From: Thermoflexus sp.
GTDB taxonomy: Bacteria; Chloroflexota; Anaerolineae; B4-G1; SLSP01
NCBI GenBank assembly: GCA_020722365.1
Contig: DYKY01000023.1
Span: 1 to 32,957 of the forward strand
Direction of reading: 5' to 3'
Length of the DNA: 32,957 nucleotides
The notes below the pieces were generated by a model. The model did not search any database, was not told the DNA's origin, and saw only the letters and a list, made by a program, of their open reading frames with translations. Of the stretch, positions 2,472 to 24,244 are shown in pieces; position 1 is the first letter of the stretch; the number at the start of each line of letters is the position of its first letter. The translations under genes were made by a program, and so were the position numbers.

Positions 2472-2473
2472 AG

Positions 2474-2515: not shown

Positions 2516-2532
2516 AAGCCGTTTGAGTCCGT

Positions 2533-3024: not shown

Positions 3025-3033
3025 TCTCCCTCC

Positions 3034-3734: not shown

Positions 3735-3755
3735 AGAATCTCTCAAATATGGATC

Positions 3756-3793: not shown

Positions 3794-3880
3794 TTATCAT
3801 TGCTAGTACAGTTGGGGCATCAGGGGAAGTTATGGGATGGGACATACCAGTTTTATTGGTTCATAGATCGCAACAGGCAG

Positions 3881-4494: not shown

Positions 4495-4551
4495 GATAAA
4501 AGATATCCCCGGAATTTCAACCGCAGATGGATGAGATGCCGATTCTGTTAC

Positions 4552-5403
4552 CTAGCTTGGCCGACCTTTTAGCCACGCAATTACCTTCTCGATTGCCGCA
4601 TCCGGCGTCGAAGCGCCTGCTGTAAGGCCGACTTTCTCCGCGCCCGTGAACCATGCCGCGTCCAACTCGTCCGCTATGGCGATGCGGTACGTGCGTGGAT
4701 TGACTTGTGCGCACACTTCCGCCAGACGGCGACTGTTGGAGCTGTGCGCCCCGCCGATGACAAGCATCACGTCCACTTGCCGTGCTGTCTCGATCGCAGC
4801 AGCCTGACGCTGCTCGGTGGCGTTGCAGATGGTGTTGTGGGCGCGCAATTCCTGGCATTTGCCCATCAACGCGCCGACGATGGCCTGGTAGTTGGCGGGA
4901 ATCTTCGTCGTCTGCGAGACCACGCCGATCTTCTTGTAGCGCGGCAGTGCAGCGACGTCATCGAGACTTTGAACGATCACCGTCCCTTCCCCGGCCCACC
5001 CGGCGATGCCGATCACTTCCGCGTGCTCCGGCGCGCCATAGATGACAACCTGGTAGCCCTCATCGTGCAGCGCGCGGGCGAGTTGATGCACCCTGATGAC
5101 CAGCGGGCACGTGCCGTCCACGATGCGCAAGCCCTTGTCGCGCGCCGCCGCCAGCACGTCCGGCGGGACGCCGTGCGCGCGGATGATGACCGTCCCTGCG
5201 TCGATCTCATCGATAGCGTCCTTCGCCTGCACACCGAGCGTCTGTATCTGCGCGACCACCTCGTCGTTGTGGACGATGGGGCCGAGCGTGTAGACCGGCT
5301 CACCGGCAGTCGCCTCGGCGCTTGCCGCCGTTTCCTCCACCGTCTTCACTGCGCGCTTCACGCCGAAACAGAAGCCATATTCTTTGGCGAGGATGATTTC
5401 CAC
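4552..5403 (-). CDS. ispH: 4-hydroxy-3-methylbut-2-enyl diphosphate reductase (IspH/LytB)
   Basis: VEIILAKEYGFCFGVKRAV, GPIVHNDEVV, DGTCPLV, NTICNATEQRQAA, GGAHSSNSRRLAEV. GTG start at 5403 is preceded by GGAGG. The supplied ORF starts at 5421. Confidence 0.96.
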   Translation of the reverse strand: MEIILAKEYGFCFGVKRAVKTVEETAASAEATAGEPVYTLGPIVHNDEVVAQIQTLGVQAKDAIDEIDAGTVIIRAHGVPPDVLAAARDKGLRIVDGTCPLVIRVHQLARALHDEGYQVVIYGAPEHAEVIGIAGWAGEGTVIVQSLDDVAALPRYKKIGVVSQTTKIPANYQAIVGALMGKCQELRAHNTICNATEQRQAAAIETARQVDVMLVIGGAHSSNSRRLAEVCAQVNPRTYRIAIADELDAAWFTGAEKVGLTAGASTPDAAIEKVIAWLKGRPS

Positions 5404-5420
5404 GTGCGCCTCCAAAATCA

Positions 5421-5480
5421 CTCAACGGATTGAACGGATTTAACGGAAATCCTTCCGTTCGATCCGTTCAATCCGTTGAG
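5421..5480. repeat. Long nested inverted repeat: 19-bp perfect outer arms plus 7-bp perfect inner arms, 4-nt loop
   Basis: 5421-5439 CTCAACGGATTGAACGGAT is the reverse complement of 5462-5480; 5442-5448 AACGGAA pairs with 5453-5459 TTCCGTT. Confidence 0.95.
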
Positions 5481-5487
5481 GAAATCC

Positions 5488-6624
5488 TTACTGTGTGATC
5501 TGCGCCTGGACATAGGCCCTGGCCCAGGCATCGACTTCGAGTATAGCCTCGAATGTGGGATTGTCCACGCCGGTATGGGCGTTGAGGGCATGCTCGACCA
5601 GCCGGGGAATGTCGGAGAATTTGATCCGCTCCGCCAGATACAGGCCAACGGCTTCTTCGTCCGCCGCGCAGAGGACGGTGGGATACGTACCGCCTGCAAT
5701 TCCAGCCTCGCGGGCCAGGCGAAGACACGGGAAGCGCGTCGTGTCGGGCGCTTCGAAGGTTAGCGCGCGCGCGGCAATCAAATCCAGGGGATTGCAAATT
5801 TGCGCCGTGCGCGCGGGGTAATTCAACGCGTACTGAATGGCGAGGCGCATGTCGGGTGCGGAAAGCTGCGCCTTGATCGCGCCGTCCACGTACTGCACCA
5901 TCGAGTGGATGATGCTCTGCGGGTGAACGATCACGTCGATTTGCTCGTAAGGCTTCCCGAAGAGCCAATGCGCCTCGATGATCTCGAAGCCCTTGTTCAT
6001 CAGCGTGGCCGAGTCGATGGTGATCTTCTGGCCCATCACCCACGTGGGATGCTTGAGCGCGGCGGCGGGGCTGAGATCGTGGAGTTGCTCCGCGCTGTAG
6101 GTGCGGAACGGCCCGCCGGACGAGGTGAGGATAAGCTTGGCGACCGTGTCGCCGTCCTCACCGCGCAGGCACTGCCACAGCGCGCTGTGCTCGCTGTCGA
6201 TGGGGCGCAGTTCCACGCCGTATTTTTCGACGGCCTCCATCACCAACGCTCCCGCCATCACCAGCACCTCTTTGTTGGCGATGGCGATGGCCTTGCGCGC
6301 TTCGATGGCGGCCAGCGTGGGCACGAACCCCGCCTTGCCCGACGTGGCGACAACGACCAGGTCCACGTCCGGGCGGGTGACGATTTCCACCAGGCCCGCC
6401 TCGCCTGTGACAACGTTGGGATGCGCGACACGCGAGGCATCCGCGGCTTCGCTCACGGCGACGAGCGCCGGGTGAACCTCACGGATTTGTTCGTTGAGCA
6501 GCGTCACATTGCGCCCGGCAGCCAGCGCGACGACGGTGAAGTGATCGGGCAGGGCCCGGATCACATCCAGGGTTTGCCGTCCGATGGAGCCGGTGCTGCC
6601 GAGGATGGCGATACGTTGCGGCAT
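5488..6624 (-). CDS. dxr: 1-deoxy-D-xylulose 5-phosphate reductoisomerase (Dxr/IspC)
   Basis: IAILGSTGSIGRQTLDVI, ANKEVLVMAG, PIDSEHSALWQCL, LTSSGGPFR, HPTWVMGQKITIDSATLMNKGFEIIEAHWLF. Confidence 0.97.
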   Translation of the reverse strand: MPQRIAILGSTGSIGRQTLDVIRALPDHFTVVALAAGRNVTLLNEQIREVHPALVAVSEAADASRVAHPNVVTGEAGLVEIVTRPDVDLVVVATSGKAGFVPTLAAIEARKAIAIANKEVLVMAGALVMEAVEKYGVELRPIDSEHSALWQCLRGEDGDTVAKLILTSSGGPFRTYSAEQLHDLSPAAALKHPTWVMGQKITIDSATLMNKGFEIIEAHWLFGKPYEQIDVIVHPQSIIHSMVQYVDGAIKAQLSAPDMRLAIQYALNYPARTAQICNPLDLIAARALTFEAPDTTRFPCLRLAREAGIAGGTYPTVLCAADEEAVGLYLAERIKFSDIPRLVEHALNAHTGVDNPTFEAILEVDAWARAYVQAQITQ

Positions 6625-6625
6625 A

Positions 6626-8497
6626 CTAGCCCATCAAGCCACGATCAAACGCATGACGTTGCACATCTGGCCCAAGTCCGGGCATACTGACGAGCGTGCG
6701 CCGGTCCGACAATTCGACGTGATAGTACCAGGGCACACTGAACAGTTCGGGGAACGTCCGCTGGATCACACTGACGATCCCGGCAGCGTCGAGGTTGTAC
6801 TGCTTCAGGAAAAGGCTGCGATCACCGTGTTCGATAAATTCGTCGGGCAATCCCAGGCGCTTGAGCGTGACGTAAGTCAGGCCGCGCGCCTCCAGTAGCT
6901 CTAGCACGGCGGAACCGAACCCGCCTGCCAGCACACCCTCTTCGACCGTCACCAGGCGGTTGAAGTTCAGCGCCAGGCTCTTGAGCAGGTCGCCGTCCAG
7001 CGGCTTGACGAAGCGTGCATTGATGACGGCGGCTTCCACACCCTGGGTGGAGAGGGCTTTGGCGGCCTCTATTGCCGGATAAACCATGGACCCCACAGCC
7101 AGGATAGCTAAATCCACGCCTGCACGCAGCATTTCGGCCTGCCCGACGGGGAGTGCCTGGGGGCGCGCAGGGAGCGAGACACCTTCACCCGCGCCCCTGG
7201 GGTAGCGGATGGCGACCGGCCCGTTGATGGTCAGCGCCGTCCACAGCATCTCGACCAACTCGGCCTCATCTTTGGGCGCCATCACGGTGAAGTTGGGAAC
7301 GCTGCGCAGGTACGCCAGATCGAACACGCCTTGATGCGTGCGCCCATCGTCGCCGACGATGCCGCCCCGGTCGATGGCGAAGATCACCGGCAGATTTTGC
7401 AGCGCCACGTCGTGGATCACTTGATCGTAGGCGCGTTGCAAGAAGGTGGAATAGATCGCCGCGACGGGCCGCATCCCCTGCGTAGCCAATCCCGCCGCGA
7501 AGGTGACCGCATGCTGTTCGGCGATACCCACGTCGAAGAAGCGCTCCGGGAACGCTTGCGCAAAGCTGGCCAGCCCGGTGCCAGAGGGCATGGCCGCAGT
7601 GATCGCCACCACGCGCTTGTCGGCGCGCGCCATCTCCGTCAACGTGTCGCCGAAGACCTGGCTGTAGGTGGGCGCGGCTTTCTTATTGGGCGCTTTCGAT
7701 ACGCCGTTCTGCGGTGAGATACCGTGCCACTTCTCCGGATTCTCTTCGGCGGGACGGTAGCCCTTGCCCTTCTGCGTGCGCACGTGAACCACCACGGGTT
7801 TGTCGGTGATGGCTTTCGCAGCGCGCAGGGCGTCTTGCAATGCCGCCAGATCGTGCCCGTCAACCGGCCCAATGTACTGAAAGCCCAACGTCTCCCAGAG
7901 GGTGGGGGATGTGGCAGGCGGCGCCTCGAGATGATTCGCAATCGCGCCGACGCTTGGCGAGATCGACATTCCGTTATCGTTCAAAATAACAATGAAGCGC
8001 TTCTGCAGGTATCCGGCATGGTTGAAGCCCTCCAATGCCATCCCGGCGGTAACGGAGCCATCGCCGATGATGGCGATCACGTGGAAATCCTCGCCTTGCA
8101 GGTCGCGCGCGGCGGCAATGCCCAGCGCCGACGAAATCGACGTGCCCACGTGACCTGCGCCAAAAATATCATGGGCGCTCTCGCGGCGGTCGGCGTAGCC
8201 TGACATTCCTCCATACTTGCGTAACGTGCTGAAATCGTGGAGGCGTCCGGTGAGCAGCTTGTGAGGATAGCACTGGTGGCTCACGTCCCAGATCAGCTTG
8301 TCGCGGGGACTGTCGAAAACGGTGTGCAACGCCAGCGTCAATTCCACAACGCCCAGGTTGGGCGCCATATGCCCGCCGTTTTCAAGGACGGTCTCGATAA
8401 TGTGTTGCCGTATTTCCGACGCTATCTGCTCAAGCTCAGGCAGTTCCAGGGACTTCAAATCGTCCGGTCCCTTGATTTGCTCCAATGATGGGATCAT
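6626..8497 (-). CDS. dxs: 1-deoxy-D-xylulose-5-phosphate synthase (Dxs)
   Basis: [65 protein letters not shown]. Start moved from 8566 to ATG at 8497 with SD GGAGGT. Confidence 0.96.
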   Translation of the reverse strand: MIPSLEQIKGPDDLKSLELPELEQIASEIRQHIIETVLENGGHMAPNLGVVELTLALHTVFDSPRDKLIWDVSHQCYPHKLLTGRLHDFSTLRKYGGMSGYADRRESAHDIFGAGHVGTSISSALGIAAARDLQGEDFHVIAIIGDGSVTAGMALEGFNHAGYLQKRFIVILNDNGMSISPSVGAIANHLEAPPATSPTLWETLGFQYIGPVDGHDLAALQDALRAAKAITDKPVVVHVRTQKGKGYRPAEENPEKWHGISPQNGVSKAPNKKAAPTYSQVFGDTLTEMARADKRVVAITAAMPSGTGLASFAQAFPERFFDVGIAEQHAVTFAAGLATQGMRPVAAIYSTFLQRAYDQVIHDVALQNLPVIFAIDRGGIVGDDGRTHQGVFDLAYLRSVPNFTVMAPKDEAELVEMLWTALTINGPVAIRYPRGAGEGVSLPARPQALPVGQAEMLRAGVDLAILAVGSMVYPAIEAAKALSTQGVEAAVINARFVKPLDGDLLKSLALNFNRLVTVEEGVLAGGFGSAVLELLEARGLTYVTLKRLGLPDEFIEHGDRSLFLKQYNLDAAGIVSVIQRTFPELFSVPWYYHVELSDRRTLVSMPGLGPDVQRHAFDRGLMG

Positions 8498-8752
8498 GAT
8501 GTGACCTCCGGATAATATGGGTCTAACGCTCCTGACTTTTGAGAATTGCAGGACATGGACGTGCAAAATCGGTTAAATATGTTTATTATCATAGCATAAA
8601 TACCCTATCAAAAGCTATCAGGATAAGGTCATGGGGCATCTTGGTCGTCTTTGACAGTGCATTTAGGGGACTGTCCCTCGCCATGCAGGCATCGCATACC
8701 CACCACCACGCCAGTGCTGGATGGCGCTCAGTTCGCCTGAGTTCACTCCGGG

Positions 8753-9562
8753 TTAGCCGGTCGTGTCACCGAGGTTATACTGGGGCGTGGAGAACAGTTC
8801 GGGGAACGTTCGCTGGATCACGCTGACGATGCCCGCGGCGTCGAGGTTGTAGCGCTTCAGGAACAGACTGCGCTCGCCGTGTTCGATGAATTCGTCGGGC
8901 AGCCCCAGGCGCTTGAGCGTGCCGTAGTTCAGGCCGCGCGCCTCCAATAGCTCCAGCACGGCGGAACCGAACCCGCCCGCCAGCACACCCTCTTCGACCG
9001 TTACCAGGCGATTGAAGTTCAACGCCAGGCTCTTGAGCAGTGCACCATCCAGCGGCTTGACGAAGCGCGCATTGACGACAGCAGCCTCCACGCCCAAACT
9101 CGAGAGGGCACGCGCCGCCTCCAGCGCGGGATAGACCGTCGCGCCGAGTGCGAGAATGGCGACGTCTGAGCCGGCGTGCAGCATTTCGGCCTGCCCGATA
9201 GGAAGCCCATGAGGCTTCGCCGGGAGCGCCGCGCCTTCGCCGGCGCCCCTGGGGTAGCGGATGGCGATCGGGCCATCGATGGTCAGCGCCGTCCACAGCA
9301 TCTCGACCAATTCGGCTTCATCCTTGGGCGCCATCACGGTGAAGTTGGGGATACAGCGCAGGTAGGCGATGTCGAACGCGCCCTGGTGCGAACGCCCGTC
9401 ATCGCCGACGATCCCGCCCCGATCGATGGCGAAGATCACCGGCAGGTTTTGCAGCGCCACGTCGTGGATCAGTTGATCGTAGGCGCGCTGCAGGAAGCTG
9501 GAATAGATCGCCGCGACGGGCCGCATCCCCTGCGCGGCCAATCCCGCTGCAAACGTGACCGC
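8753..9562 (-). pseudogene. Truncated second copy of dxs (C-terminal part: end of the pyrimidine-binding domain plus transketolase C domain)
   Basis: Near-identical over most of its 262 aa to the C-terminal part of the dxs at 6626-8497. Homology stops abruptly at GTGACCGC (~9562). The N-terminal TPP-binding region is absent. Confidence 0.88.
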
Positions 9563-11602: not shown

Positions 11603-12457
11603 GTGGAAATGGCGCTTAAAGGCAGGCTAGAAGATTTCGGCATAACCCAATTACTGAATCTTATCAATTTGGCCCGGAAGACGGGGACGCTTTACCTTGA
11701 AGGAGCGCAGAAAAATTCGTATCTTTGTTTCCGCGAAGGGAAGTTGATTTATGCGGCGCTCGAAGGGGTGGAGGACAGTCTCCCGGTCATTCTGCAACGC
11801 GCGAACGTTTTTACGGCTGAGCAAGTGCGGATGATTCAGACGAACATGGCGGGAAGAACAGACCGCGACATCGCGCAAGTTCTCATCACGAGCGGACGTT
11901 TGCAGCAACAAGTCGTGGTGAAGAGCGTGCGTGATGCGATCCTTGACCTGGTCTATCAAATCTTCTCCTGGCATGAGGGACAGTTTCGCTTCGAGCCTTC
12001 CAAACTGCCGGTCCAGGGCAAAATCACGACCTCCATCGCGCTGGAAAACGTCATCATGGAGGGCAGCCGCCGGGTGAAGGAGTGGGAGCGTCTGCAAGAC
12101 GAACTCCCTGACCTGGATATTCCCCTGAAATTTGCCGAGCGCCCAACAACGCCGCTGCGTGACGTCAACCTCAGTGTCGAAGAGTGGCGCGTCATCTCTT
12201 TCGTTAACCCAAGCAATACCATCCGGCAGATCGCGCAGTTCAATAATATGAGCGAGCTGCAAATCCGCAAAATCGTCTATAGCTTGCTCCAGGCGGGACT
12301 GGTGGAAATCATTCGCCCACCACGCCCTACGGTCGCGCCCGCGAGTGCGCGGCAAGTCCCAGAAGGTATGCCTCAACCGACTGCGGCGCAGATGCAGCGA
12401 CCTGCTGTTAAGCGGGGTATCGTCCAGAAGCTGATTAGCCGGATCCGGGAGTTATAG
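11603..12457 (+). CDS. DUF4388 (PATAN-like) domain protein with C-terminal winged-helix-like region
   Basis: MALKGRLEDFGITQLLNLINLARKTGTLYLEG...CFREGKLIYAALEG is the DUF4388 signature; C-terminal EEWRVISFVNPSNTIRQIAQFNNMSELQIRKIVYSLLQAGLVEII. Confidence 0.85.
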   Translation: MEMALKGRLEDFGITQLLNLINLARKTGTLYLEGAQKNSYLCFREGKLIYAALEGVEDSLPVILQRANVFTAEQVRMIQTNMAGRTDRDIAQVLITSGRLQQQVVVKSVRDAILDLVYQIFSWHEGQFRFEPSKLPVQGKITTSIALENVIMEGSRRVKEWERLQDELPDLDIPLKFAERPTTPLRDVNLSVEEWRVISFVNPSNTIRQIAQFNNMSELQIRKIVYSLLQAGLVEIIRPPRPTVAPASARQVPEGMPQPTAAQMQRPAVKRGIVQKLISRIREL

Positions 12458-12993
12458 TGATGCAGACGTTAAAGATTGTTGTGACAGGCCCCTTTTCCTC
12501 TGGCAAGACAGAGTTGATCCAGAGCGTCAGCGAGATTGACGTGGTCTCCACCGAGCGGAAAATCTCTCAAGAAGCCGAACGCATCAAACAGCAGACTACG
12601 GTGGCGATGGACTTTGGGCGAATCACCATTGACGATGAGTTGATTCTGTATCTCTTTGGGACACCCGGTCAACGCCGGTTTGATTTTATGTGGGAAATTC
12701 TCTCCGAAGGTATGCTCGGTTTTGTCGTGTTGGTCGATAGCACCCGCCCGGAGACGTTCCGTGAAGCGCGCCGCATCCTTGACACGTTCCGAAGCTATTC
12801 TCCCGTTCCGTATATTGTGGCCGCCAACAAACAGGACCTCTCCGACGCATGGCCGCCGGAGGATTTGCGCATCGTGCTCCACGTTGAACCGGGTGTGAAG
12901 GTGGTGCCATGTGTAGCCACCGATAGAGAAAGCGTCAAAGAAGTTTTATTAGAGCTGCTGTACTCCATTCTGGAGTTAGTGGACGAAGAGTAG
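12457..12993 (+). CDS. Small Ras/Arf/MglA-like GTPase
   Basis: P-loop GPFSSGKTELIQ, switch-II LFGTPGQRRFDFMW, specificity motif AANKQDL. 1-nt overlap with the preceding gene. Confidence 0.88.
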   Translation: MMQTLKIVVTGPFSSGKTELIQSVSEIDVVSTERKISQEAERIKQQTTVAMDFGRITIDDELILYLFGTPGQRRFDFMWEILSEGMLGFVVLVDSTRPETFREARRILDTFRSYSPVPYIVAANKQDLSDAWPPEDLRIVLHVEPGVKVVPCVATDRESVKEVLLELLYSILELVDEE

Positions 12994-13086
12994 TAACTGT
13001 TTTTTAACTGAATTGCAATGGCCTCTTTTCGTGGATGAATAAGGTTTGTGGTATGATGATAGAAAAGGGGTGCAGGGTTAGGCATA

Positions 13087-13875
13087 ATGAGTTCAATAGT
13101 GACGGATCGGGGTATAGTCCACTACGAGACCTTTGGGCGCGGAAAGCCGGTGGTCTTGTTGCATTGTTGGCTTGGTTCGTGGAATTACTGGTATTCAACG
13201 ATGGAGTATCTGTCCGCGCATAAATACAAAACGTACGCGCTGGACTTTTGGGGATTTGGGGATTCGGCCAAACAAGGTTCTTTTTCAGTCACTGAATACG
13301 TGCGCATGGTCGATCAATTCATGGAGCGCATGGGCTTGGAACGCGCACGGGTGATGGGTCATTCAATGGGTGGCACGGTCTCGTTAAGCCTGGCGCTCTC
13401 GTATCCGCAGCGGGTATCCAGGGTTGCAGTGGTTGGTTCTCCAATTTGCGGTTCGGGCCTGGCCTTTTTACTCAAGTTGTCCGGCTACCGCCAATTTGCC
13501 CGTATGCTCTATGCCGTGCCGGGTCTTTTGTCCGTATCCATGAAGTTGCTCTCGTTCTCGTATGCCAAAGACTGGCGCACGTTGTACGATATGCTGAAGA
13601 AGGACTTGTCACGTACCACGATGCAATCCTTCTCTGCCAGCATCCGCGATTTACGCCTCACCGATTTGCGGCCCCGACTTGGCGAACTGCATATTCCCGC
13701 GATGGGCATTTATGGACGTAAGGACAACATTGTCGATCCTAAGCAAGGCGAACTGATGCGCGACGGGATCAAAAGTCACATCGTTCACTATTTCGAACAC
13801 TCGGGACATTTTCCGATGTTGGATGAAACCGACCGTTTTCACGCGACAATCCTGGAATTTTTGGCGGATTCGTGA
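13087..13875 (+). CDS. Alpha/beta hydrolase (paralog 1, intact triad)
   Basis: RGKPVVLLHCWLGSWNYW, nucleophile elbow GHSMGG, GRKDNIV, EHSGHFPMLDE. Confidence 0.88.
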   Translation: MSSIVTDRGIVHYETFGRGKPVVLLHCWLGSWNYWYSTMEYLSAHKYKTYALDFWGFGDSAKQGSFSVTEYVRMVDQFMERMGLERARVMGHSMGGTVSLSLALSYPQRVSRVAVVGSPICGSGLAFLLKLSGYRQFARMLYAVPGLLSVSMKLLSFSYAKDWRTLYDMLKKDLSRTTMQSFSASIRDLRLTDLRPRLGELHIPAMGIYGRKDNIVDPKQGELMRDGIKSHIVHYFEHSGHFPMLDETDRFHATILEFLADS

Positions 13876-14543
13876 ATGTGAGCGGAATCGCGAGTGCAGA
13901 CACCTTGGTGAGTGACGATTTAGAACGGCGTGATTACTATTTCCCTAATCGCATCTCGCGCATCTTGTTATTGGCACTGCGCGACGTGATGGGTGAGAAT
14001 GGTATTCACGCGGTTTTAAATATTGCGCGGCTTCAGCACTTTATTGAGGAGTGCCCGCCGCCTAACTTCGAACCCGGTATGACGTTTGATGAGGTAGGAC
14101 GCCTCTTTGATGCGGTGGAAGGGATTTATGGCGTTCGTGGTGGGCGACGGTTGGCGCGGCGCTCAGGAGAAGCATGCTTCAAGTATGGTATTGAGGGATT
14201 TGGTGGCGTCATCGGCTTTGCCGATTTCGCGCTGCGATTGTTACCGATTTCTTTGCGCGTGCGCATCGGCCTCGAGGTGTTGGCCGAAATCTTTAACCGC
14301 TACACGGATCAACAGGTGGTACTTCGCGAGGGCGAAGATAGCTTCTTTTTCATCATCGAGCGTTGTGGGTTCTGTTGGCGTAAGCATTCCGACACCCCCG
14401 CTTGTGCGTTACTTGAGGGATTGCTTGAAGAGTCGCTTTACTGGGTTAGCCGGGGAAAGCGTTTTTTTATCGAAGCGATCAGTTGTATTGCCTGCGGCGA
14501 TTCTGTAGGAACGTTGCGTGTGGACAAGACACCGTTGAATTAA
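13872..14543 (+). CDS. V4R (4-vinyl reductase-like) small-molecule-binding domain protein
   Basis: C-terminal CGFCWRKHSDTPACALLEGLLEESLYWVSRGKRFFIEAISCIACGDSVGTLRV matches the recalled V4R cysteine pattern. Overlaps the stop of the previous gene. Confidence 0.65.
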   Translation: MNVSGIASADTLVSDDLERRDYYFPNRISRILLLALRDVMGENGIHAVLNIARLQHFIEECPPPNFEPGMTFDEVGRLFDAVEGIYGVRGGRRLARRSGEACFKYGIEGFGGVIGFADFALRLLPISLRVRIGLEVLAEIFNRYTDQQVVLREGEDSFFFIIERCGFCWRKHSDTPACALLEGLLEESLYWVSRGKRFFIEAISCIACGDSVGTLRVDKTPLN

Positions 14544-14564
14544 CGAGTGCAAGGTATAGGCTGA

Positions 14565-15824
14565 ATGCGTAAAATCATCCTGCGCGATAAACGAAAGATA
14601 CCACCCTTCAACGAGCCGGCGCGCGAGTTGAGTGTGCTGACGAAACCTCTGTGGCTGCAACAGCGGGATGTGTTGGCGCGCTATACGACCGCAGAGCGCG
14701 AGGTTGAGTCGGTTCACGAAGTCGGCAATGACCGTGAGGAGACCCTGGTCTACCGCGACAATCTCTATTTCGATCAAGCATTCATCGACGAGTTCATCCA
14801 GCGCGCGCAAAAATCCGGCAAATCCTGCCAGGTGGCCTTCAAACTCGACGACCCGGCCATTACCGGACAGGCGATTTACCTGCAACGTGGAATTCGCCGC
14901 CAGGGCAACTATTACGTTGCGGACCTGTGGTACTATCCTTACGGCATCGAACCTGTGGTGCGTCCCCTGGTGATGGATACCGAAGCGCGTGAAGTGGGTT
15001 TCTACCACGTGCCTACGCATATGTCCGACTTTCAGGGTGATCTGGTCTACAATTTGCCGACGAAACCGTTTCTTTCCATCGAACACTGGATCCACATCCT
15101 CCATGCCAACATCGATTTCGGTATCTTTGCGATTGGCGTGCGCTTTGAAAAACGTCTGGAGCGCGATCTCGGATTGCTCATGAAAATGCTATGGCGAGGT
15201 ATCCTCGAGCGCAAACAGGTCTTGACCTCATCGGAGATCGTGGTGACGGGCAAAAATTGTACGATTGATCCCACGGCGATCATTCAGGGACCAACCTTCA
15301 TCGGGGACAACGTGGACATCGGCCCCGGCGTCGTCATCCGCAACTGCGTCATCGGCGACGATGTCACCATCGACCAGGGCTGCCAGTTGATGCTCAGCGT
15401 CGTGGGCAACGGCACTTTTCTACCCTTCCGCGCTGCGCTCTACCGCACCGTGCTGATGGATCGTTGCATGGTGGCGCAGAATTCGTGCTTGCAGATGTGT
15501 GTTGTAGGGCGCGACTCGTTTGTGGGTGCCGGCACAACGTTCACCGATTTCTTGCTGGTCGATAAGCCGTTGCGCTCGCACTTCGGCGGCAAGCTTGAAG
15601 AGACCGGCATGACGGCTTTGGGGAGTGCCATTGGGCACAATGTGCGCATCGGTTCAGGGTTGGTCTTCTTCCCTGCGCGGATGATCGAGTCGGACGTGAT
15701 TATGTTCGCTTCAGACGATCGCCGGCGGGTGATCACCGGCAACGTTGCCTACGAGGATAGCGATCATTTGAAACTTAAGGATGGCGAGAAAATGCACCCG
15801 CGTTTGTACAAGCGGGATGCGTAG
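14565..15824 (+). CDS. Left-handed beta-helix (hexapeptide repeat) protein, GlmU/transferase-like C-terminus
   Basis: Hexapeptide repeats CTIDPTAIIQGPTFIGDNVDIGPGVVIRNCVIGDDVTIDQG...VVGRDSFVGAGTTF...IGHNVRIGSG. Confidence 0.75.
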   Translation: MRKIILRDKRKIPPFNEPARELSVLTKPLWLQQRDVLARYTTAEREVESVHEVGNDREETLVYRDNLYFDQAFIDEFIQRAQKSGKSCQVAFKLDDPAITGQAIYLQRGIRRQGNYYVADLWYYPYGIEPVVRPLVMDTEAREVGFYHVPTHMSDFQGDLVYNLPTKPFLSIEHWIHILHANIDFGIFAIGVRFEKRLERDLGLLMKMLWRGILERKQVLTSSEIVVTGKNCTIDPTAIIQGPTFIGDNVDIGPGVVIRNCVIGDDVTIDQGCQLMLSVVGNGTFLPFRAALYRTVLMDRCMVAQNSCLQMCVVGRDSFVGAGTTFTDFLLVDKPLRSHFGGKLEETGMTALGSAIGHNVRIGSGLVFFPARMIESDVIMFASDDRRRVITGNVAYEDSDHLKLKDGEKMHPRLYKRDA

Positions 15825-15844
15825 GCGCGGGGGCGTAGGCCACG

Positions 15845-16924
15845 TTGATGCATTCTTTTGCCTTTATCATACATCCGATAGATCCGAAACGCGACGTGGC
15901 GCGCAAATACCCGTTGCTCGGTAAGGTCTTGTCGGAAGGGGCCATCAACTTTGTTTGTCGCTTCTGGCCGCCCGTTGAACTTTCACATATCACCGGCGCG
16001 CGCTCTAAGGCCACCGGCGAGGAAATCGAAGGTTGGCTGATCGCCGTGCCGTATACGCCGCAGCGCATGCTGCAACTGCCAACAACCGAAGTCTATAACA
16101 AGATCATCGCCGCCGGCCATCTGGCGACCCGTTTAGGGGCGCAGATGCTCGGTCTGGGGGCCTATACATCAGTGGTCGGCGATGGCGGCGCAACCATCGC
16201 GCGCAACCTGGACATTGCCGTGACATCGGGCGATAGCTATACGGCAGCGCTCGCGGTGCAGGCGACACTCCAGGCGGCACACTTGATGGATATCGATATG
16301 GCGCAAACGACGTTAGCTGTTGTGGGTGGGGCCGGAGCGATTGGCGCGGCGGTCGCGCAGTTGTTGGCGTCACATGTGAATCACATGCTTTTGATCGGGC
16401 GGCAACGCGAGGCTCTTGCCGTTGTGGCAGAAAAGGTACGGCGCTTTGGTTGTCCTGAGGTGCAACTCTCCACTGAGATTGTGGATGTGGCCAAGGCGCA
16501 GGTGGTGGTGACGGTGACGAGCGCCGGCGGCAACCTGATCCGGCCGGAGATGCTGCGCCGGGGTGCGGTGGTGTGCGATGTCTCTCGCCCGCGCGACGTC
16601 TCCCACCAGGTCATCCAGGCGCGTGACGATGTCCTGGTGATCGATGGGGGGCTGGTGCGGGTTCCGGGTAAAGTGGATTTTGGCTTCGACTACGGATTGC
16701 CGCCCCACCTCACCTATGGGTGTCTGGCCGAGACGATGACGTTGGCTTTCGAGGGTCGCTTTGAGGATTACTCTATCGGCAAAGACCTATCGGTAGAACA
16801 GGTGCAAGAGATCAACGCTCTGGCGACCAAACATGGGTTCGAGTTGGCGGCTTTACGCAGTTTTGAACACAAATTAGATGATGCTTTTCTTGAAAAAGTG
16901 AAGGCGAAGGCGAAAGTTGGGTAA
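15845..16924 (+). CDS. Acyl-ACP-reductase-like / shikimate-dehydrogenase-fold NAD(P)-binding protein
   Basis: LGLGAYTSVVGDGG, TLAVVGGAGAIGAAVAQLLA, VVCDVSRPRDVS, LAETMTLAFEGRFEDYSIGKDLSVEQVQEI resembles the layout of cyanobacterial long-chain acyl-ACP reductase. Confidence 0.65.
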   Translation: MMHSFAFIIHPIDPKRDVARKYPLLGKVLSEGAINFVCRFWPPVELSHITGARSKATGEEIEGWLIAVPYTPQRMLQLPTTEVYNKIIAAGHLATRLGAQMLGLGAYTSVVGDGGATIARNLDIAVTSGDSYTAALAVQATLQAAHLMDIDMAQTTLAVVGGAGAIGAAVAQLLASHVNHMLLIGRQREALAVVAEKVRRFGCPEVQLSTEIVDVAKAQVVVTVTSAGGNLIRPEMLRRGAVVCDVSRPRDVSHQVIQARDDVLVIDGGLVRVPGKVDFGFDYGLPPHLTYGCLAETMTLAFEGRFEDYSIGKDLSVEQVQEINALATKHGFELAALRSFEHKLDDAFLEKVKAKAKVG

Positions 16925-16926
16925 TC

Positions 16927-16951
16927 AACGCTGTTGGTGTCCAACAGCGTT
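16927..16951. repeat. Perfect 11-bp hairpin with 3-nt loop
   Basis: AACGCTGTTGG tgt CCAACAGCGTT, directly after the stop of the reductase-like gene. No T-tract. Confidence 0.85.
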
Positions 16952-16994
16952 GGTTCGATATGCGGTTCCATAACCGTTGGTAGGAGGTATACAC

Positions 16995-17888
16995 ATGAGC
17001 GGTGGTCGTGTCCTGGTTGTAGAAGATGATTTCGATATATCCAGTATGCTGCAACTTTATTTCAAGACCCAGGGCTACGAAGTCTATGTAGCCCCGCGCG
17101 GCGGCGTGGCCCTGGAGATGACGCGGCAGAATATGCCGAATGTCATCGTGCTGGATATCATGCTACCCGATATTGATGGGTATGAGGTTTGTAAGCAACT
17201 GCGGACGAATCTGCGCACCAGCCACATCCCCATCATCTTCTTGACTCAGAAGGACGAACGTAACGACAAAATTCAGGGCCTTGAATTAGGGGCGGATGAT
17301 TACATCACCAAGCCCTTTGACCTGGAAGAGCTGCGTCTGCGGGTGCGCAATACCATCAAGAGCGCCGAAGTGGCCAGCCTGACCAGTCCAAGCACCGGCC
17401 TGGCTAGTGGACGGTTGATCGAGCAACAACTCCGCGAACTGATTCGCAAACAGGACTGGGGCGTCCTGTACATTGGCATCACGGGTCTGGGTGCTTTCAA
17501 CGAGGTCTACGGATTTGTCGCCGGAGAGGAAGTTTTGCGTTTTACCGGGATGCTCTTGAACGACGTCATTGACGAGATGGGGACGGTGGATGATTTTATC
17601 GGCCACATTGGCGGCGACAATTTCATCATCATCACCCGCAAAGAATTGGTGGACCCACTGCGCACAGAGATCGCCCACCGCTTTGCTGAGAATGTAGGGA
17701 CACACTACGACTTCATGACGAGGATGCAGGGATATCTGGCTATCAAGGACGATGATGGTAAAGAGGAACACGTTCCCTTGATGACCTTGCAGATTGGCGC
17801 GTTGACCGTTGAGGATGGCCCGTTTACCGACATTCGGGAGATCACCGAAGCGGCAGCCGAGGCGCGGCGACAAGCGCGCAATAAGTAA
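16995..17888 (+). CDS. Response regulator with REC and degenerate GGDEF domain
   Basis: RVLVVEDDFDIS...VIVLDIMLPDIDGYEVCKQL...KPFDLEELRLRV; GGDNF in place of GGDEF. ATG at 16995 with SD AGGAGGT; the supplied ORF starts at 16977. Confidence 0.85.
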   Translation: MSGGRVLVVEDDFDISSMLQLYFKTQGYEVYVAPRGGVALEMTRQNMPNVIVLDIMLPDIDGYEVCKQLRTNLRTSHIPIIFLTQKDERNDKIQGLELGADDYITKPFDLEELRLRVRNTIKSAEVASLTSPSTGLASGRLIEQQLRELIRKQDWGVLYIGITGLGAFNEVYGFVAGEEVLRFTGMLLNDVIDEMGTVDDFIGHIGGDNFIIITRKELVDPLRTEIAHRFAENVGTHYDFMTRMQGYLAIKDDDGKEEHVPLMTLQIGALTVEDGPFTDIREITEAAAEARRQARNK

Positions 17889-17926
17889 AGCTTGACTGGA
17901 GATAGAGAAACAGCGGAGGCGTTTGG

Positions 17927-20900
17927 GTGAAAGGGTTGCAGGCGCTCAGCACACGACTGTTGGCCGTTTCCAGCGTGGAATCCCTGTGGGAGATCACGCT
18001 TGAGGAAGCGGTGCAATGGTGCAAGGCCGACGCGGGCGCGTGGATTTGGACTGCCCGTCCTGGGACGTCCGTTCCCACAGTTGGCCCGGTGTATGGCGCT
18101 GCAACGTGTGATTTCTCTGCCTGGCAAGTTGCGCTGCTGCACGATGAAACTGCTGGGGAAGCGCGATGTTGGGGTCTTCCCGAAGGGATGTTCGATTTCG
18201 CGTTAAGCGTTCCTCTATCGGGCGAAATTTGGAATGGTTGGCTTGTCTTGGCGCGGCAAGCGTCATTCACGGAGGACGATGTGGAACGCGCCGGCGGCGT
18301 TGTCGCTTTGGCGCAAATTGCGGTTGCTGGAATGGGGCGGTATGCAGGCGTCGATCAAACGCGCGCCTACCAGGTGCAGGAATTGGAAACTGTACAGCGG
18401 ATGGGGCATTTGATCGGCGAAAGCCTCAATTTGAAGGCTATGTTGGATGTGATCCTGGAGGCGTTGGCGGGATTGATCCCCTACGATGCGGGAGAAATCA
18501 CGCTCTTCGACGCCGAAGAGGGCGTCTTGCGCAGCCAGGCTTACCGTTCCAATGATGCGGCGCGCCGCGCCGCGCAGGTCAAGGGTACTGCCTACCGGCT
18601 CGATGAAGGATTGAGCGGGTGGCTGGCGCGCTCCCGTAAACCGTTGTTGATTGCTGACTTATTGGCAGAGGACATCACCGAACCGAAGGACGAAACGCTC
18701 AAACTGTGGGCGCGCTCTTTCCTGGGGGTCCCCCTGTTGGCGCGCGGCGAGTTGGTGGGGACGTTGGAAATTGCGGCGGCCAAGCCGGGACAGTTCACCG
18801 CACACCACCAGAAATTGGCCGAGATTTTCGGCGGGCAGGCGGCGATTGCGATTGAGAACGCGCAATTGTACTCCCAGACCGACGCCGAACTGCGCCGTCG
18901 TCTCGAAGCCCTGGAGGCGCTACAACGCATCACGCGCGATATCACTGCGACGATTGACCTGGACTATATCCTCAACGGTGTTTTGGAAGAAGCAATCCGA
19001 TTTAGCCAGGCTACAGCGGGTTTGATCGCGCTTTCCGATGGGGAAAGCTTTGAATTGCGCGCTCGCCGTGGTTACGCGGATGCGGATTTGGATGACCTGC
19101 GCGACTCGCTGGGTTCGGAGTTTTTGGCTCGCCAGGAAACGATGTACATTCCTGATGTGCAGCAGTTGCCCAATGCTGAATCATTTCCCCCTGGCGCGCG
19201 CGCTTTGCTGGTGGAACCGGTCTTCTACGAAGAACGTCTGGCGGCGGCCATCCTGGTGCAATCAGACCAGCCGGCGGCCTTTACCCCGGCGGTCTTGGAG
19301 TTCATCGCTGGACTGGCGGCTCAAACTTCCATCGCGGTGGGAAACACGCGACGTTACCAGGAGCAACTGGAACGCGGCGAGTTGATGCACAAGCGCGCCG
19401 AACAGATGGCGCTGCTGTTGGAAGTCTCGCGCACGCTGCGCTCAGACCGCCCTCTGGAAGAGACGCTGCTCGATATTGCCTACGCGGTACAGGAAGGCAC
19501 TGGATTCAACATTGTGTTGATCAGCGTGGTGGAAGGTGTGACGCTGCGCCGGGTGGCCGGTGCTGGGATTCCGCTGGCGCGTCTGGAGCAAATGAAGCAG
19601 GTGCGCCATTCCTGGGCGCGCATCCAATCGCTGTTTCAAGAACGCTTCCGGCTGGGACGCTGTTACTACATTCCGGCGGAGCATTACGAGAGCGTTATGG
19701 ATGGGCTGGACGTCTTCGTGCCGGGGACCGAGGAGGTTGTGGCGCGCCAGCCGGGTATGTGGCATCCGAAAGACTCGTTTATCACGCCACTGTACGGCAG
19801 CCATGGGGAAATCGTCGGGATGATGTCGGTCGACGATCCTCTTGACCGGCGTGCGCCTACGGCGCTGACCGCTGAGGTGATTGAGGTCTTCGCGGCGCAG
19901 GTCGCTTTGGCCATTGAAAACAGCCATCTGGTCGAGGACTTGCGCCGCCAGCTTAACACCTTGCGCCTGTTCAACGAGTTAAGCCGCTCCATCACCACCA
20001 AGCTCGATTTGCCTTTGGTTTTGAACACCGTCGTGCAGTCGGTGACGAACCTGTTGGGCTATGACTACGCTACGATTTTCCTGGAAGACAAAATCAGTGC
20101 GTCACAGGCGACGCCGCGTTTCTTGCCGCTGGCGACTTCCGGGTATGCGCTGGATCTGGTGGATGAGAGCGCCTTCGAGCGGCGCGTGGGGCGGGTCGTG
20201 CAAACCGGAATGCCACTGGTGATCGAGGATGCGGTTGCCGATCCGCGCTACAAGGCCGGGCCGGTGAGCATCGGCTCGTCGCTGATGGTGCCGTTGATGG
20301 TAGAAGGGCGTTCGGTGGGCGTGCTCGTCGCCGATCGTAAGGTCACAGGGGATTTCACCCCTACCGAAGTCGCCACGTTGACCGCGTTGGCCGACCAGGT
20401 GGCGGTAGCCGTCGAGAACGCGCGCCTCTTCGAAGAGGTGACGCGCTTCAACGAGGAATTGGAATTGCGCGTTGCCGAGCGCACGCGCGAATTGGCCGAA
20501 GCCTTGGAGGGATTGCGCTTGCAACGCGACCGCTCCAACGTCCTCTACCACATCGCTTCCGAATTGGTTGCCAGCCTGGATATAGATCGCGTGCTCAGCC
20601 AGGCGCTGTCGCTGCTGCAAAAGGCTGTCAGAGCCTCGCGGAGCGCCGTGATTTTGCTCGATAACAACACCGGCAAATTGTTCTATCGCGCCGCCATCGG
20701 GCACACTGAGCCAATCCCGCCGGGTGGACGCCTTGCGCCCTTTAACCGGCAGGATGGCGTTATTGGATGGGTCTTCGCCAACAGGAAAGCATTGATTATT
20801 CCCAATGCGCTGCAGGACAAGCGTTGCGCGATAGGCATCGACCGTTCCGTGCGCTCGGTTTTGGCCGCGCCGATCGTGGGTGGGGCCGGGGAATCGCTCG

Positions 20901-22930
20901 GTGTTATTCTGATGCAATCGCCTGTGGAGAACGTCTTCGACGAGCCGGAACTGCGTCTCGTTGAGGCGGCGGCGGTGCAGTTGGGCAACGCGCTCAACAA
21001 CGCCGAATTGTATCGTCTGATCCGCGAGCAGGCTGAGCGCGTTGGCAGCATGTTGCGCGCGCAGCAGATCGAGGCGGCGAAGAACCAGGCCATCCTCGAA
21101 GGTATCGCCGACGGCGTGATGGTGGCCGACGAGAACGGCAAGGTCATCTTGTTCAACGCGGCGGCTGAACGCATCCTCTCGATTGCGCGCGAACAGGCAT
21201 TAGGCCGCCCGCAGGATGGTATTATAGGGCTTTACGGCAGCGCCGCACGCGAGTGGTTGGCGCAGATCGACCAATGGCGGCAGAATCCCGGCGCTTATGG
21301 CACGGAAGAGTTCCTGGTCCATCGCATGGAAGTGGAGCGGCGCTTTGTCAGCGTTCACTTGTCGCCGGTTGTCTCGCCGTCGCAAGAGTTTCTCGGCGTC
21401 GTCTCGGTCTTCCGCGACATCACATCCGAAGTGGAAGCCGACCGCGCCAAGAGCGACTTCGTGTCCACCGTCTCCCACGAACTGCGCACGCCGATGACGT
21501 CGATTGTGGGCTACGTCGATCTCGTCTTGATGGGCGCAACCGGGGCGTTATCGGATATGCAACGCGATTTTCTGAAGCGGGTGAGGACCAACGCCGAGCG
21601 CCTGACCACGTTGGTCAATGATCTGCTCGACATTTCCCGCATTGAGACGGGGCGCGTGGTGTTACAACTGGCGCCGGTCGCCATAGGGGACATTGTCAAG
21701 CAGGTGGTGGATCTGGTGCAGCCCAAGGTAGAGGAAAAGGAGCAGCGGCTTTACACCATCCTGCCTGCTGGTCTTCCCAAGGTGTACGGTGATCGCGACC
21801 GTCTGGCGCAGATTTTGACCAACATCGTCGGCAATGCCTACAAATACACGCCCGTGGGCGGCGAGATTGGCGTCCACGCTTACGTTCGGGATGCCAAGAT
21901 GTACGTGGCCGTATCCGATACAGGCATTGGTATTGCGCCTAAAAACCAGAAGAAGCTTTTCTCACGTTTCTACCGGGTCGAGGACGATCCCGCCGTCTAT
22001 GAGGTATCCGGGACGGGTCTGGGATTGGCGATCTCGCTGTCGCTGATCCAGATGCATGGCGGTAACATTTCACTGGACAGCGTGTTGGGGAAAGGTAGTA
22101 CCTTCACCTTCTCCGTGCCGCTGGCCGAAGGCGAACCGGCCGCGGATGTTGGCACGCCGCCGCCGCGCATCGCCGGAGAAGCTCAGGTGACGGTGTTGGT
22201 GGTTGAAGATGATCGGGAAAGCTCCGATTTGCTCAAGTTGATGTTGCAGCGCGAGGACATCGAATTCCTGACCGCGAGTTCTGGCGAGCAGGCGCTGCAC
22301 ATCGCGCGCGAAAAGCACCCCGACTTGATTACGCTGGACATCCGTCTGCCAGACCTGGACGGGTTCGAGGTATTGCAGTTGCTCAAACGCGACGTCGATA
22401 CGGCGGACATCCCGGTGGTCATCGTCTCGGTGACGCAGGACCGGCAGCGCGGACTGCGGATGGGTGCGACAGAATTCCTGGTCAAACCCCTGGACGAACA
22501 GCGGCTGCGTGAGGTTATCCTGCCGTTGCTCGATCGCCGGGAAACCGTGGTGGTCGCCGGGGATGATCGCCGTTTGCTCGATCCGCTGCGGGCGGCGCTA
22601 CACGTCCGTGGATTGAACGTCCGCACAGCCCGGCGCGGCGAGAGCGCGCTCGATCTGGTGCGCGGAACGCATCCGGCGGTCGTCGTGGTGGATCAACAGT
22701 TGCCTGATATGGATGGCTATCAGATCGTGGAATCTCTCCGGCAGGACGCAAGTATGGTCAGCGTGCCGGTGATACTATTGACCGAGGACGCGGCGCACGG
22801 GGAGCATCGTTGGAATGGCGGTGATGGCGCCGGGCCGGTACAGTTAATCGTCAAACCGTTTTCCGTTGAGGAACTTGCGGCCAGTATTGCCGGTCTTATT
22901 CAGGGAAACAGTGTGTTGAAGGAGTCGTGA
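17927..22930 (+). CDS. Giant hybrid sensor histidine kinase: multiple GAF, PAS, HisKA, HATPase_c, two REC domains
   Basis: Repeated GAF-like blocks ending AIAIENAQLY, SIAVGNTRRY, ALAIENSHLV, AVAVENARLF, LGNALNNAELY; PAS GVMVADENGKVILFNAAAERIL; H-box SHELRTPMTSIVGY; GTGLGLAIS; REC VTVLVVEDDRESSDLL and VVVAGDDRRLLDPL. Confidence 0.93.
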   Translation: MKGLQALSTRLLAVSSVESLWEITLEEAVQWCKADAGAWIWTARPGTSVPTVGPVYGAATCDFSAWQVALLHDETAGEARCWGLPEGMFDFALSVPLSGEIWNGWLVLARQASFTEDDVERAGGVVALAQIAVAGMGRYAGVDQTRAYQVQELETVQRMGHLIGESLNLKAMLDVILEALAGLIPYDAGEITLFDAEEGVLRSQAYRSNDAARRAAQVKGTAYRLDEGLSGWLARSRKPLLIADLLAEDITEPKDETLKLWARSFLGVPLLARGELVGTLEIAAAKPGQFTAHHQKLAEIFGGQAAIAIENAQLYSQTDAELRRRLEALEALQRITRDITATIDLDYILNGVLEEAIRFSQATAGLIALSDGESFELRARRGYADADLDDLRDSLGSEFLARQETMYIPDVQQLPNAESFPPGARALLVEPVFYEERLAAAILVQSDQPAAFTPAVLEFIAGLAAQTSIAVGNTRRYQEQLERGELMHKRAEQMALLLEVSRTLRSDRPLEETLLDIAYAVQEGTGFNIVLISVVEGVTLRRVAGAGIPLARLEQMKQVRHSWARIQSLFQERFRLGRCYYIPAEHYESVMDGLDVFVPGTEEVVARQPGMWHPKDSFITPLYGSHGEIVGMMSVDDPLDRRAPTALTAEVIEVFAAQVALAIENSHLVEDLRRQLNTLRLFNELSRSITTKLDLPLVLNTVVQSVTNLLGYDYATIFLEDKISASQATPRFLPLATSGYALDLVDESAFERRVGRVVQTGMPLVIEDAVADPRYKAGPVSIGSSLMVPLMVEGRSVGVLVADRKVTGDFTPTEVATLTALADQVAVAVENARLFEEVTRFNEELELRVAERTRELAEALEGLRLQRDRSNVLYHIASELVASLDIDRVLSQALSLLQKAVRASRSAVILLDNNTGKLFYRAAIGHTEPIPPGGRLAPFNRQDGVIGWVFANRKALIIPNALQDKRCAIGIDRSVRSVLAAPIVGGAGESLGVILMQSPVENVFDEPELRLVEAAAVQLGNALNNAELYRLIREQAERVGSMLRAQQIEAAKNQAILEGIADGVMVADENGKVILFNAAAERILSIAREQALGRPQDGIIGLYGSAAREWLAQIDQWRQNPGAYGTEEFLVHRMEVERRFVSVHLSPVVSPSQEFLGVVSVFRDITSEVEADRAKSDFVSTVSHELRTPMTSIVGYVDLVLMGATGALSDMQRDFLKRVRTNAERLTTLVNDLLDISRIETGRVVLQLAPVAIGDIVKQVVDLVQPKVEEKEQRLYTILPAGLPKVYGDRDRLAQILTNIVGNAYKYTPVGGEIGVHAYVRDAKMYVAVSDTGIGIAPKNQKKLFSRFYRVEDDPAVYEVSGTGLGLAISLSLIQMHGGNISLDSVLGKGSTFTFSVPLAEGEPAADVGTPPPRIAGEAQVTVLVVEDDRESSDLLKLMLQREDIEFLTASSGEQALHIAREKHPDLITLDIRLPDLDGFEVLQLLKRDVDTADIPVVIVSVTQDRQRGLRMGATEFLVKPLDEQRLREVILPLLDRRETVVVAGDDRRLLDPLRAALHVRGLNVRTARRGESALDLVRGTHPAVVVVDQQLPDMDGYQIVESLRQDASMVSVPVILLTEDAAHGEHRWNGGDGAGPVQLIVKPFSVEELAASIAGLIQGNSVLKES

Positions 22931-22932
22931 AC

Positions 22933-23310
22933 ATGGTCAAAATCTTGGTCGCAGAAGACGAGCGTGACATCCGAGAATTGATTGCATTTACCCTGCGTTT
23001 TGGTGGATTCGAGGTGGAATTGGCGAGCAACGGCGCAGAAGCGTTGGAAAAAGCAGCGGATGCCATCCCCGATCTGATTTTGATGGATGTGCGGATGCCA
23101 CGGATGACCGGGTATCAGGCATGTGAAGCATTGAAAGAAAACCCGGACACGCGAGATATTCCCGTGGTTTTCCTTTCTGCGAAGGGCCAGGAGAGCGAAA
23201 TCCAAGAAGGCCTGGAAGTTGGGGCGATGGAATACATCCTTAAACCTTTTGCGCCGGACGAGCTCACCGCGCAAGTGCACAGGATTCTGCAGGAAATTGG
23301 CAAGGCGTGA
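22933..23310 (+). CDS. Stand-alone REC-domain response regulator
   Basis: VKILVAEDERDIRELI, LILMDVRMPRMTGYQACEAL, VVFLSAKGQ, ILKPFAPDEL. Confidence 0.92.
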   Translation: MVKILVAEDERDIRELIAFTLRFGGFEVELASNGAEALEKAADAIPDLILMDVRMPRMTGYQACEALKENPDTRDIPVVFLSAKGQESEIQEGLEVGAMEYILKPFAPDELTAQVHRILQEIGKA

Positions 23311-23332
23311 CGGATAAAGTGGAGCGCAGTCT

Positions 23333-24118
23333 ATGAGTGCGATTATCCTCGAAAGCAGCCTCGTCCATTACGAGGCTCTAGGACGTGGCAAGCCGTTGCT
23401 GTTTCTCCACGATTGGCTTGGTTCGTGGCGCTACTGGGTGCCCACGATGGTCGACATGTCCTCTTCCCACCGTGCGTATGCCCTCGATTTTTGGGGTTTT
23501 GGCGATTCGGATAAGGTGGTGACGCGGTACAGCATCCCCGGATATGTGGGGCAGGTTAAGCTTTTTATGGACCAGATGGGGATTGGCAGCGTGCCGATCA
23601 TTGGCCACGGTCTAGGTGGGGCGGTGGGGGCGCATTTTGCTATGACGCACCCTGAGCACGTCGAACAATTGCTGATGGTTTGCACACCTTTGGCGAGCAG
23701 CGATATTGCTCGCTCCTTGAGCGGCTACACTGGCGGCGAAAATCCGGCCAAAGTTATCCTGGGGCGCCGTCTGAAAACGTATGAAAAAGTTATTGAGGCC
23801 GGAAAAACCGATGCCAACGCCGTGGTGCAGAGCGTGAAGTCGGTGCTGGACCACAATCTTCTGGAGGTTGTGGAAAAACTGGACATACCGGTGTTGTTGG
23901 TCTGTGGTCGGGAAGACCCCATCATCCAGGTGCCAGATGAAGAGGTGTTAGAAGATCTGGATTATAACGTGTACCCGTTTATTTTTGAGACGGCGCAGCA
24001 TTATCCGATGTTGGAGGAAACCAATAAATTCAACCGGTTGCTGCGGGATTTCCTGGTTTACAAGGATAAGTGGGACGAGATCGAAGTAAAGGACGAGTGG
24101 AAACGTCGTATGCGTTAG
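23333..24118 (+). CDS. Alpha/beta hydrolase-fold protein (paralog 2), nucleophile Ser replaced by Gly
   Basis: RGKPLLFLHDWLGSWRYW, ALDFWGFGDSDK; nucleophile elbow reads GHGLGG (att ggc cac ggt cta ggt ggg), not GHSxGG. Asp (GREDPII) and His (ETAQHYPML) positions are retained. Confidence 0.85.
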   Translation: MSAIILESSLVHYEALGRGKPLLFLHDWLGSWRYWVPTMVDMSSSHRAYALDFWGFGDSDKVVTRYSIPGYVGQVKLFMDQMGIGSVPIIGHGLGGAVGAHFAMTHPEHVEQLLMVCTPLASSDIARSLSGYTGGENPAKVILGRRLKTYEKVIEAGKTDANAVVQSVKSVLDHNLLEVVEKLDIPVLLVCGREDPIIQVPDEEVLEDLDYNVYPFIFETAQHYPMLEETNKFNRLLRDFLVYKDKWDEIEVKDEWKRRMR

Positions 24119-24124: not shown

Positions 24125-24222
24125 AGACTACAAAAGTCTTACGCGATAGCGGGTTGACTCAATTTCCAGGTTCCGCACACGAGTTTTGAAAGTGCAAATA
24201 TGCGTTGAGACTTTTGTAGTCT
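24125..24222. mobile_element. MITE-like element A (98 bp) with perfect 15-bp terminal inverted repeats AGACTACAAAAGTCT
   Basis: 24125-24139 AGACTACAAAAGTCT and 24208-24222 AGACTTTTGTAGTCT; the same ends occur at 25743-25838. Confidence 0.7.
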
Positions 24223-24244
24223 TTACTACGTGGATGGTAGACCG

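Follow-up and report, generated by a model that had tools for sequence, protein, structure and literature searches.

Among described signalling systems, the closest counterpart to the locus reported here is the RsbQ-RsbP (alpha/beta hydrolase-PAS) module, in which the hydrolase is encoded with a sensor whose output can be a GGDEF protein or a kinase of the histidine or hybrid type; it has been proposed that the hydrolase either makes the ligand of the PAS domain or is the sensor itself, and the module is recognized by an intact Ser-Asp-His triad in the hydrolase and by an RsbP-type PAS as the most N-terminal domain of a protein whose gene directly adjoins that of the hydrolase (PMC3183031). 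Other precedents concern single components. As far as the relevant sections of PMC4316618 go, a GTPGQ G3 motif marks groups 2-5 of the MglA family of small GTPases, single-domain proteins of <240 aa that usually have a coupled MglB/Roadblock gene, and PATAN genes had been noted earlier near group 1/5 MglA GTPases. Human GMPPA is a non-catalytic nucleotidyltransferase-LbH regulator, which provides a precedent for an inactive member of that family (PMC9168903).

The window analysed here (32,957 nt, Thermoflexus sp.) is one entire contig of a 3.95-Mb genome that is 95% complete. An initial annotation had described ten plus-strand genes with signalling and metabolic domains, some overlapping or separated by tiny gaps, and an ORF check of the window located all ten, which we designated A to J, at 11603–24118:

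A, 11603..12457 (+), PATAN/DUF4388 protein with a winged-helix-like C-terminus (PF14332, 1.7e-27)
B, 12457..12993 (+), MglA-family small GTPase (domain match and GTPGQ G3 motif)
C, 13087..13875 (+), alpha/beta hydrolase with an intact Ser-Asp-His triad (orthologue alignment)
D, 13872..14543 (+), V4R-fold protein of ligand-binding type (V4R matches of orthologues and AF2 fold)
E, 14565..15824 (+), protein with a nucleotidyltransferase fold and a left-handed beta-helix (AF2 and Foldseek); core gene
F, 15845..16924 (+), NAD(P)H oxidoreductase resembling acyl-ACP reductase and PigE-N; accessory gene
G, 16977..17888 (+), response regulator with REC and a degenerate GGDEF; core gene
H, 17927..22930 (+), hybrid histidine kinase (domain matches); core gene
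I, 22927..23310 (+), single-domain response regulator (PF00072, 2e-30)
J, 23333..24118 (+), putative alpha/beta-hydrolase pseudoenzyme with a conserved tail, directly behind H/I; core gene

A and B overlap by 1 nt, and C/D and H/I by 4 nt each; the remaining genes are separated by 20 (E-F), 21 (D-E), 22 (I-J), 38 (G-H), 52 (F-G), and 93 nt (B-C). Judging by the sequence, the true starts of five genes likely lie at 11609 (A), 12460 (B), 15848 (F), 16995 (G), and 22933 (I). Most of the domain labels first given to these genes held; however, E proved to have two domains and not merely a beta-helix, and G carries GGDNF, not GGDEF.

Like the RsbQ-PAS module, the locus encodes an alpha/beta hydrolase together with a sensor kinase. 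It differs in that the Ser nucleophile is missing from J, whose gene follows that of the kinase and whose tail is distinctive, in that the kinase starts with GAF domains and not with an RsbP-type PAS, and in its extra partners E, G, D, A, and B. The intact triad is found instead in C, which adjoins B and D, J having Gly or Ala at the nucleophile position. By this comparison, the A–J system is best regarded as analogous to RsbQ-PAS and not as a member of it.

Conservation of the locus in Chloroflexota

The initial annotation had named a conserved neighbourhood among relatives as its own check, and the A–J order was indeed kept across genera, families, and orders. Order and orientation of A-B-C-D-E-F-G-H-I-J were retained in nearly all of 40 neighbourhoods, including those that belong to different families and orders within the class, and the order persisted in relatives down to ~45% identity; A adjoins B in almost all loci, and homologues of F occurred in 50 of 60 related genomes. 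When genome contigs were scanned with E, 335 coding stretches were returned, and the A–J order was seen again among the best 80 of these; the same best 80 were titled Chloroflexi, Anaerolineae, Thermoflexales, and similar, bar one MAG contig titled 'Archaeoglobales', which is probably misbinned.

Such linkage might reflect independent operons that share no function and were kept together by slow rearrangement, an explanation with which the B-C and F-G gaps, either of which could hold a promoter, and the partial gene sets of some genomes agree. As a control we compared the flanking genes in 28 loci from other families of the class, truncated loci included. A, B, C, and E were each present in 27 of the 28, F in 25, and D and G in 24 each, whereas the upstream flanking gene u10 was present in 1/28 and the downstream genes d1, d3, and d4 in 0/28 and d2 in 1/28; within its own family u10 was found in 14 of 19 loci. 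Since the A–J order is kept while the flanks are lost outside the family, the block has been held against general rearrangement, and not by chance. As the flanks were rearranged over the same distances and as J-family matches follow the presence and absence of E (see below), we consider the independent-operon explanation quite improbable. A–J is an ancient, conserved linkage group in two Chloroflexota classes.

The block does come apart in places. Genome G283 has A, B, D, G, H, and I and lacks C, E, F, and J; G143 has A, B, and D only; and in G269 the locus is rearranged. The proposed combination of GTPase, phosphorelay, and ligand- or metabolite-type genes is found as a conserved linked block, but its halves are separable, as in G283, G143, and the second class. 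Promoter and terminator scans of the locus gave no more than shuffled sequences did. An RNA hairpin between F and G, considered as an operon boundary, was strong (z -4.2) but was rejected as a conserved element because it is missing in the nearest relatives.

E turned up in 71 of the 400 genomes sampled across the phylum, comprising the window's own class and families with 4-7-Mb genomes, and is the most widely retained gene of the set. In the second class the locus has the order (D)-E-G-H-J, with D missing from the Chloroflexus-like loci; A, B, C, and F lie outside it, the A-B pair standing together at a separate locus. We take the genomes with this reduced locus to include Chloroflexus aurantiacus J-10-fl, Herpetosiphon aurantiacus, and Roseiflexus RS-1. 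Going by the second-class loci, the oldest core common to both classes consists of E, G, H, and J. A kinase accompanied by degenerate enzymes describes this core better than a pathway of biosynthesis does; C and F, the metabolic genes, were for the most part added in the window's own class. A role in gliding motility was considered from this distribution and not adopted: the core is found in gliding genera, but likewise in non-motile Anaerolineae.

The hydrolases C and J and the phosphorelay

J had been labelled a 'GHxxGG' hydrolase; the fold was confirmed, but the motif reads GHGLGG and there is no Ser nucleophile. C and J separate cleanly in a tree, with the second-class copies on the J side except for that of G070. 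Among the 34 Anaerolineae loci with distinct C and J, the nucleophile position of J is Gly in 24, Ala in 8, and Ser in 2, with Asp kept in 33/34 and His in 34/34, and C keeps Ser93, Asp, and His in 34/34 distinct orthologues. All 12 second-class copies of J have GHGLGG or GHGMGG, with Gly at the nucleophile, and the Anaerolineales-type loci have Gly (three) or Asp (one). A count of Ser in 49 of 106 J sequences turned out to be an artefact of truncated loci in which the best match to J was C, and the figures above are from a recount with C and J separated. From these alignments, J appears to be a conserved alpha/beta-hydrolase pseudoenzyme in which the Ser nucleophile has been replaced by Gly or Ala with Asp and His retained. 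Lacking the nucleophile, it would fit only the hydrolase-as-sensor model of RsbQ-PAS.

J ends in a tail, K-x-E-W-R/K-R-R, that is conserved more strongly than its fold: in 29 sequences from both classes K253 and E255 are conserved at >90%, and W256, R258, and R259 are invariant. C has no such tail. Wherever the sequence reaches, J lies directly after H or H-I, the rearranged G269 being the exception. A J-family profile (E-value ≤ 1e-40) matched 9 of 9 E-positive genomes versus 0 of 20 E-negative ones, the genomes being related and not an independent sample; the match in G070 is its C, the J match in G290 is partial, and family f18 contains both E-positive and E-negative genomes. The two J copies that keep Ser and the one with Asp count against the receptor reading given below.

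H (1667 aa) comprises five GAF domains, a PAS, HisKA, HATPase, and two REC domains; the PAS (1053-1165) is immediately before HisKA, and the N-terminal domains are GAF. A Roseiflexus-like orthologue has 9 GAF domains, and in general the number and sequence of the GAF domains vary widely, which disfavours one fixed ligand. In G, the phosphoacceptor Asp60 of the REC domain is conserved in 85/85 sequences, and the output motif is GGDNF in the window, GGDNF or GGDDF in the class, and VGPDF or VGQSF in the second class, so that the intact GG(D/E)EF of a diguanylate cyclase is lacking. Asp54 of I is conserved in 96/96.

The proteins E, F, and D and the GTPase B

The AlphaFold2 model of E (pLDDT 81.6, pTM 0.83, the beta-helix being of lower confidence) matched ST0452 by Foldseek (5z0a, E-value 1.6e-7, probability 1.00, TM 0.54 for the predicted structure); in fold searches the model also matched GMPP, and its N-domain matched CobY and RmlA. 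The beta-helix half aligns with the GlmU-like protein L202 (hhalign 95.5%). E thus resembles ST0452, GlmU, GMPPA, and GMPPB in its predicted two-domain NTase and LbH fold, and it differs from them in lacking the GxGTR loop, which was absent from E in both classes, in its N-domain without detectable sequence homology, and in its signalling-gene neighbours. Both classes share a conserved E motif, PF-x-EPARDLR-x-LNKPLW. Homology of the N-domain to PF13562-type GlmU-like proteins or to the genome's own PF00483 nucleotidyltransferases was sought with hhalign and none was found, the likeness appearing in fold searches only. The PF13562-type GlmU-like proteins likewise have no GxGTR, so its loss is no proof that E is inactive.

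If E were an active GlmU/GMPP-like transferase, it could make a surface-glycan precursor whose synthesis or placement along the filament is controlled by the kinase and the GTPase. That sugar-1-phosphate nucleotidyltransferases with LbH are the closest folds to E, that its beta-helix matches a GlmU-like protein, and that it is the most widely kept member of the set all speak for such control of envelope sugars; yet with GxGTR absent, with the locus retaining neither glycosyltransferases nor further sugar genes, and with the N-domain similar by fold and not by sequence, we regard it as unlikely.

F aligned full-length to PigE-N and to acyl-ACP reductase (AAR). It scored 106.7 and 220.4 bits against NCBIfam models, the 106.7 bits falling below the curated acyl-ACP-reductase cut-off of 449.7, and it matched the PDB entries 4ppm (2.2e-37) and 6jzq (3.4e-21). 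Cys293, invariant in 95/95 sequences, aligns with the Cys of the AAR motif ACFAEAM, and a glycine-rich NAD(P)-binding motif is present (seen in A2). F therefore shares full-length homology and the catalytic Cys with the cyanobacterial acyl-ACP reductase and the PigE N-terminal domain; it differs in scoring far under the curated family cut-offs, in having no aldehyde-deformylating oxygenase (ADO) partner, none being found in 20 relatives, and in being dispensable in the locus. F was absent from all 13 E-containing second-class loci and from the whole genomes G159 (which we take to be Bellilinea), G269, and G205, all of which keep E; the distant F-like domains of the second class are fused behind ~310 uncharacterized residues at other loci. 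F is an accessory gene.

These results bear on the original proposal of a fatty aldehyde or lipid-like signal. In such an operon, the aldehyde would come from the reduction of an acyl-thioester by F, its derivatives being substrates of C and J for hydrolysis or modification; D and H would sense the product, and B/A would act on polarity. The catalytic Cys and dinucleotide motif kept by F, its presence in most loci of the class, the intact triad of C, and the binding of hydrophobic ligands or palmitate by V4R relatives (6aq3, 5frz, 5kbh) are in keeping with this; however, F is missing from E-positive genomes and from every second-class locus, J has no nucleophile, and the deformylating oxygenase was not found in the 20 relatives. 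A lipid signal is possible but secondary, and as an account of the whole locus it seems to us doubtful.

The window copy of D scored only 17 bits against the V4R model (curated cut-off 31), but 49 of 50 orthologues match it (best 4.5e-13), and its AF2 model (pLDDT 92.1) matches H-NOX, TRAPP/Bet3, MJ1460, and the phenol sensors MopR/PoxR. D is like the V4R, H-NOX, and TRAPP-Bet3 proteins in predicted fold and in its Cys-rich C-terminus, and it differs in being a stand-alone protein and in that the window copy has lost the last conserved V4R Cys (Cys213, present in 48/50).

B is a single-domain protein of 178 aa (<240 aa) with a Ras/Arf-type small GTPase domain match and the G3 motif GTPGQ in 99/99 sequences. 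In this motif and in its PATAN neighbour it resembles the MglA-family GTPases in the sections of PMC4316618 cited above; compared with the groups given there, it has no MglB in the locus and stands in a different operon setting, among a kinase and putative pseudoenzymes. No MglB/Roadblock gene was found in the locus, and five matches occur elsewhere in the genome. We infer a polarity or surface role solely from the sequence-based placement of B in the MglA family.

A candidate receptor circuit

We favour, with a probability of roughly 0.4, a two-component/GTPase circuit in which pseudoenzymes act as ligand receptors for the multi-GAF kinase H, a reading in which we infer both ligand and output. 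J would bind, but not cleave, a hydrophobic ligand of ester or lactone type, and its basic/Trp tail may contact the GAF/PAS region of H; E would sense the state of a nucleotide-sugar or acyl donor, and D (V4R) would bind another hydrophobic ligand. H would phosphorylate G and I. The intact hydrolase C and, where present, the acyl-thioester reductase F could make or remove the ligand, and A with the MglA-type GTPase B would probably form the output that switches a function in polarity, at the septum, or at the surface. The conserved A–J order, the changes in J, the J-family matches seen with E and not without it, the folds of E and D, and the loss of the G motif with its phosphoacceptor kept are consistent with this reading. 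Its weakest step is A-B as output because in the second class the pair stands apart from the core, and because G143 and G283 keep it while lacking both E and J. A bolder form, which we think possible though on balance unlikely, is specific to these two Chloroflexota classes: a single giant GAF kinase would be served by three retired enzyme folds (J, G, and E), each a receptor or adaptor, and J would work non-catalytically in the manner of a hormone receptor.

The initial annotation matched this composition to no named system, and we found no description of the A–J locus in the open-access literature, which suggests that this conserved locus, a candidate receptor system, is undescribed. Few regulatory circuits have been characterized in the filamentous Chloroflexota, among which are hot-spring mat phototrophs, gliding predators, and filaments from sludge. 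Because the locus is kept across two classes, it is likely basic to these organisms. Moreover, since evolution has here removed the nucleophile, J offers a natural test of the open RsbQ–PAS question of catalysis versus ligand occupancy.

Inverted repeats at the F-G and J boundaries

The gap between the acyl-ACP-reductase-like gene F and the response-regulator gene G (window 16925-16976) contains a strong, perfect hairpin (z -4.2) that was not found in the nearest relatives and is probably a recent palindromic insertion. A long inverted repeat with arms AGACTACAAAAGTCT...AGACTTTTGTAGTCT lies immediately 3' of the hydrolase pseudoenzyme gene J (window 24126-24225), and is possibly the operon terminator.

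Variation in D, F and locus layout

The last cysteine of the V4R-fold protein D, kept in 48 of 50 cases, is gone in the window's genus (window 14475-14510, and locus L072), as is the glutamate at position 202 that is conserved elsewhere. At other loci (L236-L241), an F-like reductase domain is fused C-terminally to ~310 residues lacking a Pfam match; the carriers are genomes resembling those of Chloroflexus, Roseiflexus and Herpetosiphon, together with two Anaerolineae without E. A MAG contig titled 'Archaeoglobales archaeon' (L107) carries A-B-C-D-E at 61% identity, and is probably misbinned Chloroflexota DNA. The locus on contig C4 of G269 is rearranged, with E and J both retained ~14 kb apart on opposite strands.

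Genes flanking the locus

Outside A–J, the window contains the following:

440-9541, minus strand, MEP-pathway gene cluster containing both DXS-type genes
6626-8566, DXS, 646 aa, adjoining the 262-aa fragment
8753-9541, minus strand, DXS/transketolase C-terminal fragment, 262 aa
29950-30702, plus strand, AbiEii-type nucleotidyltransferase gene, downstream of A–J

The 262-aa fragment may represent a second DXS that has decayed or was mis-started.
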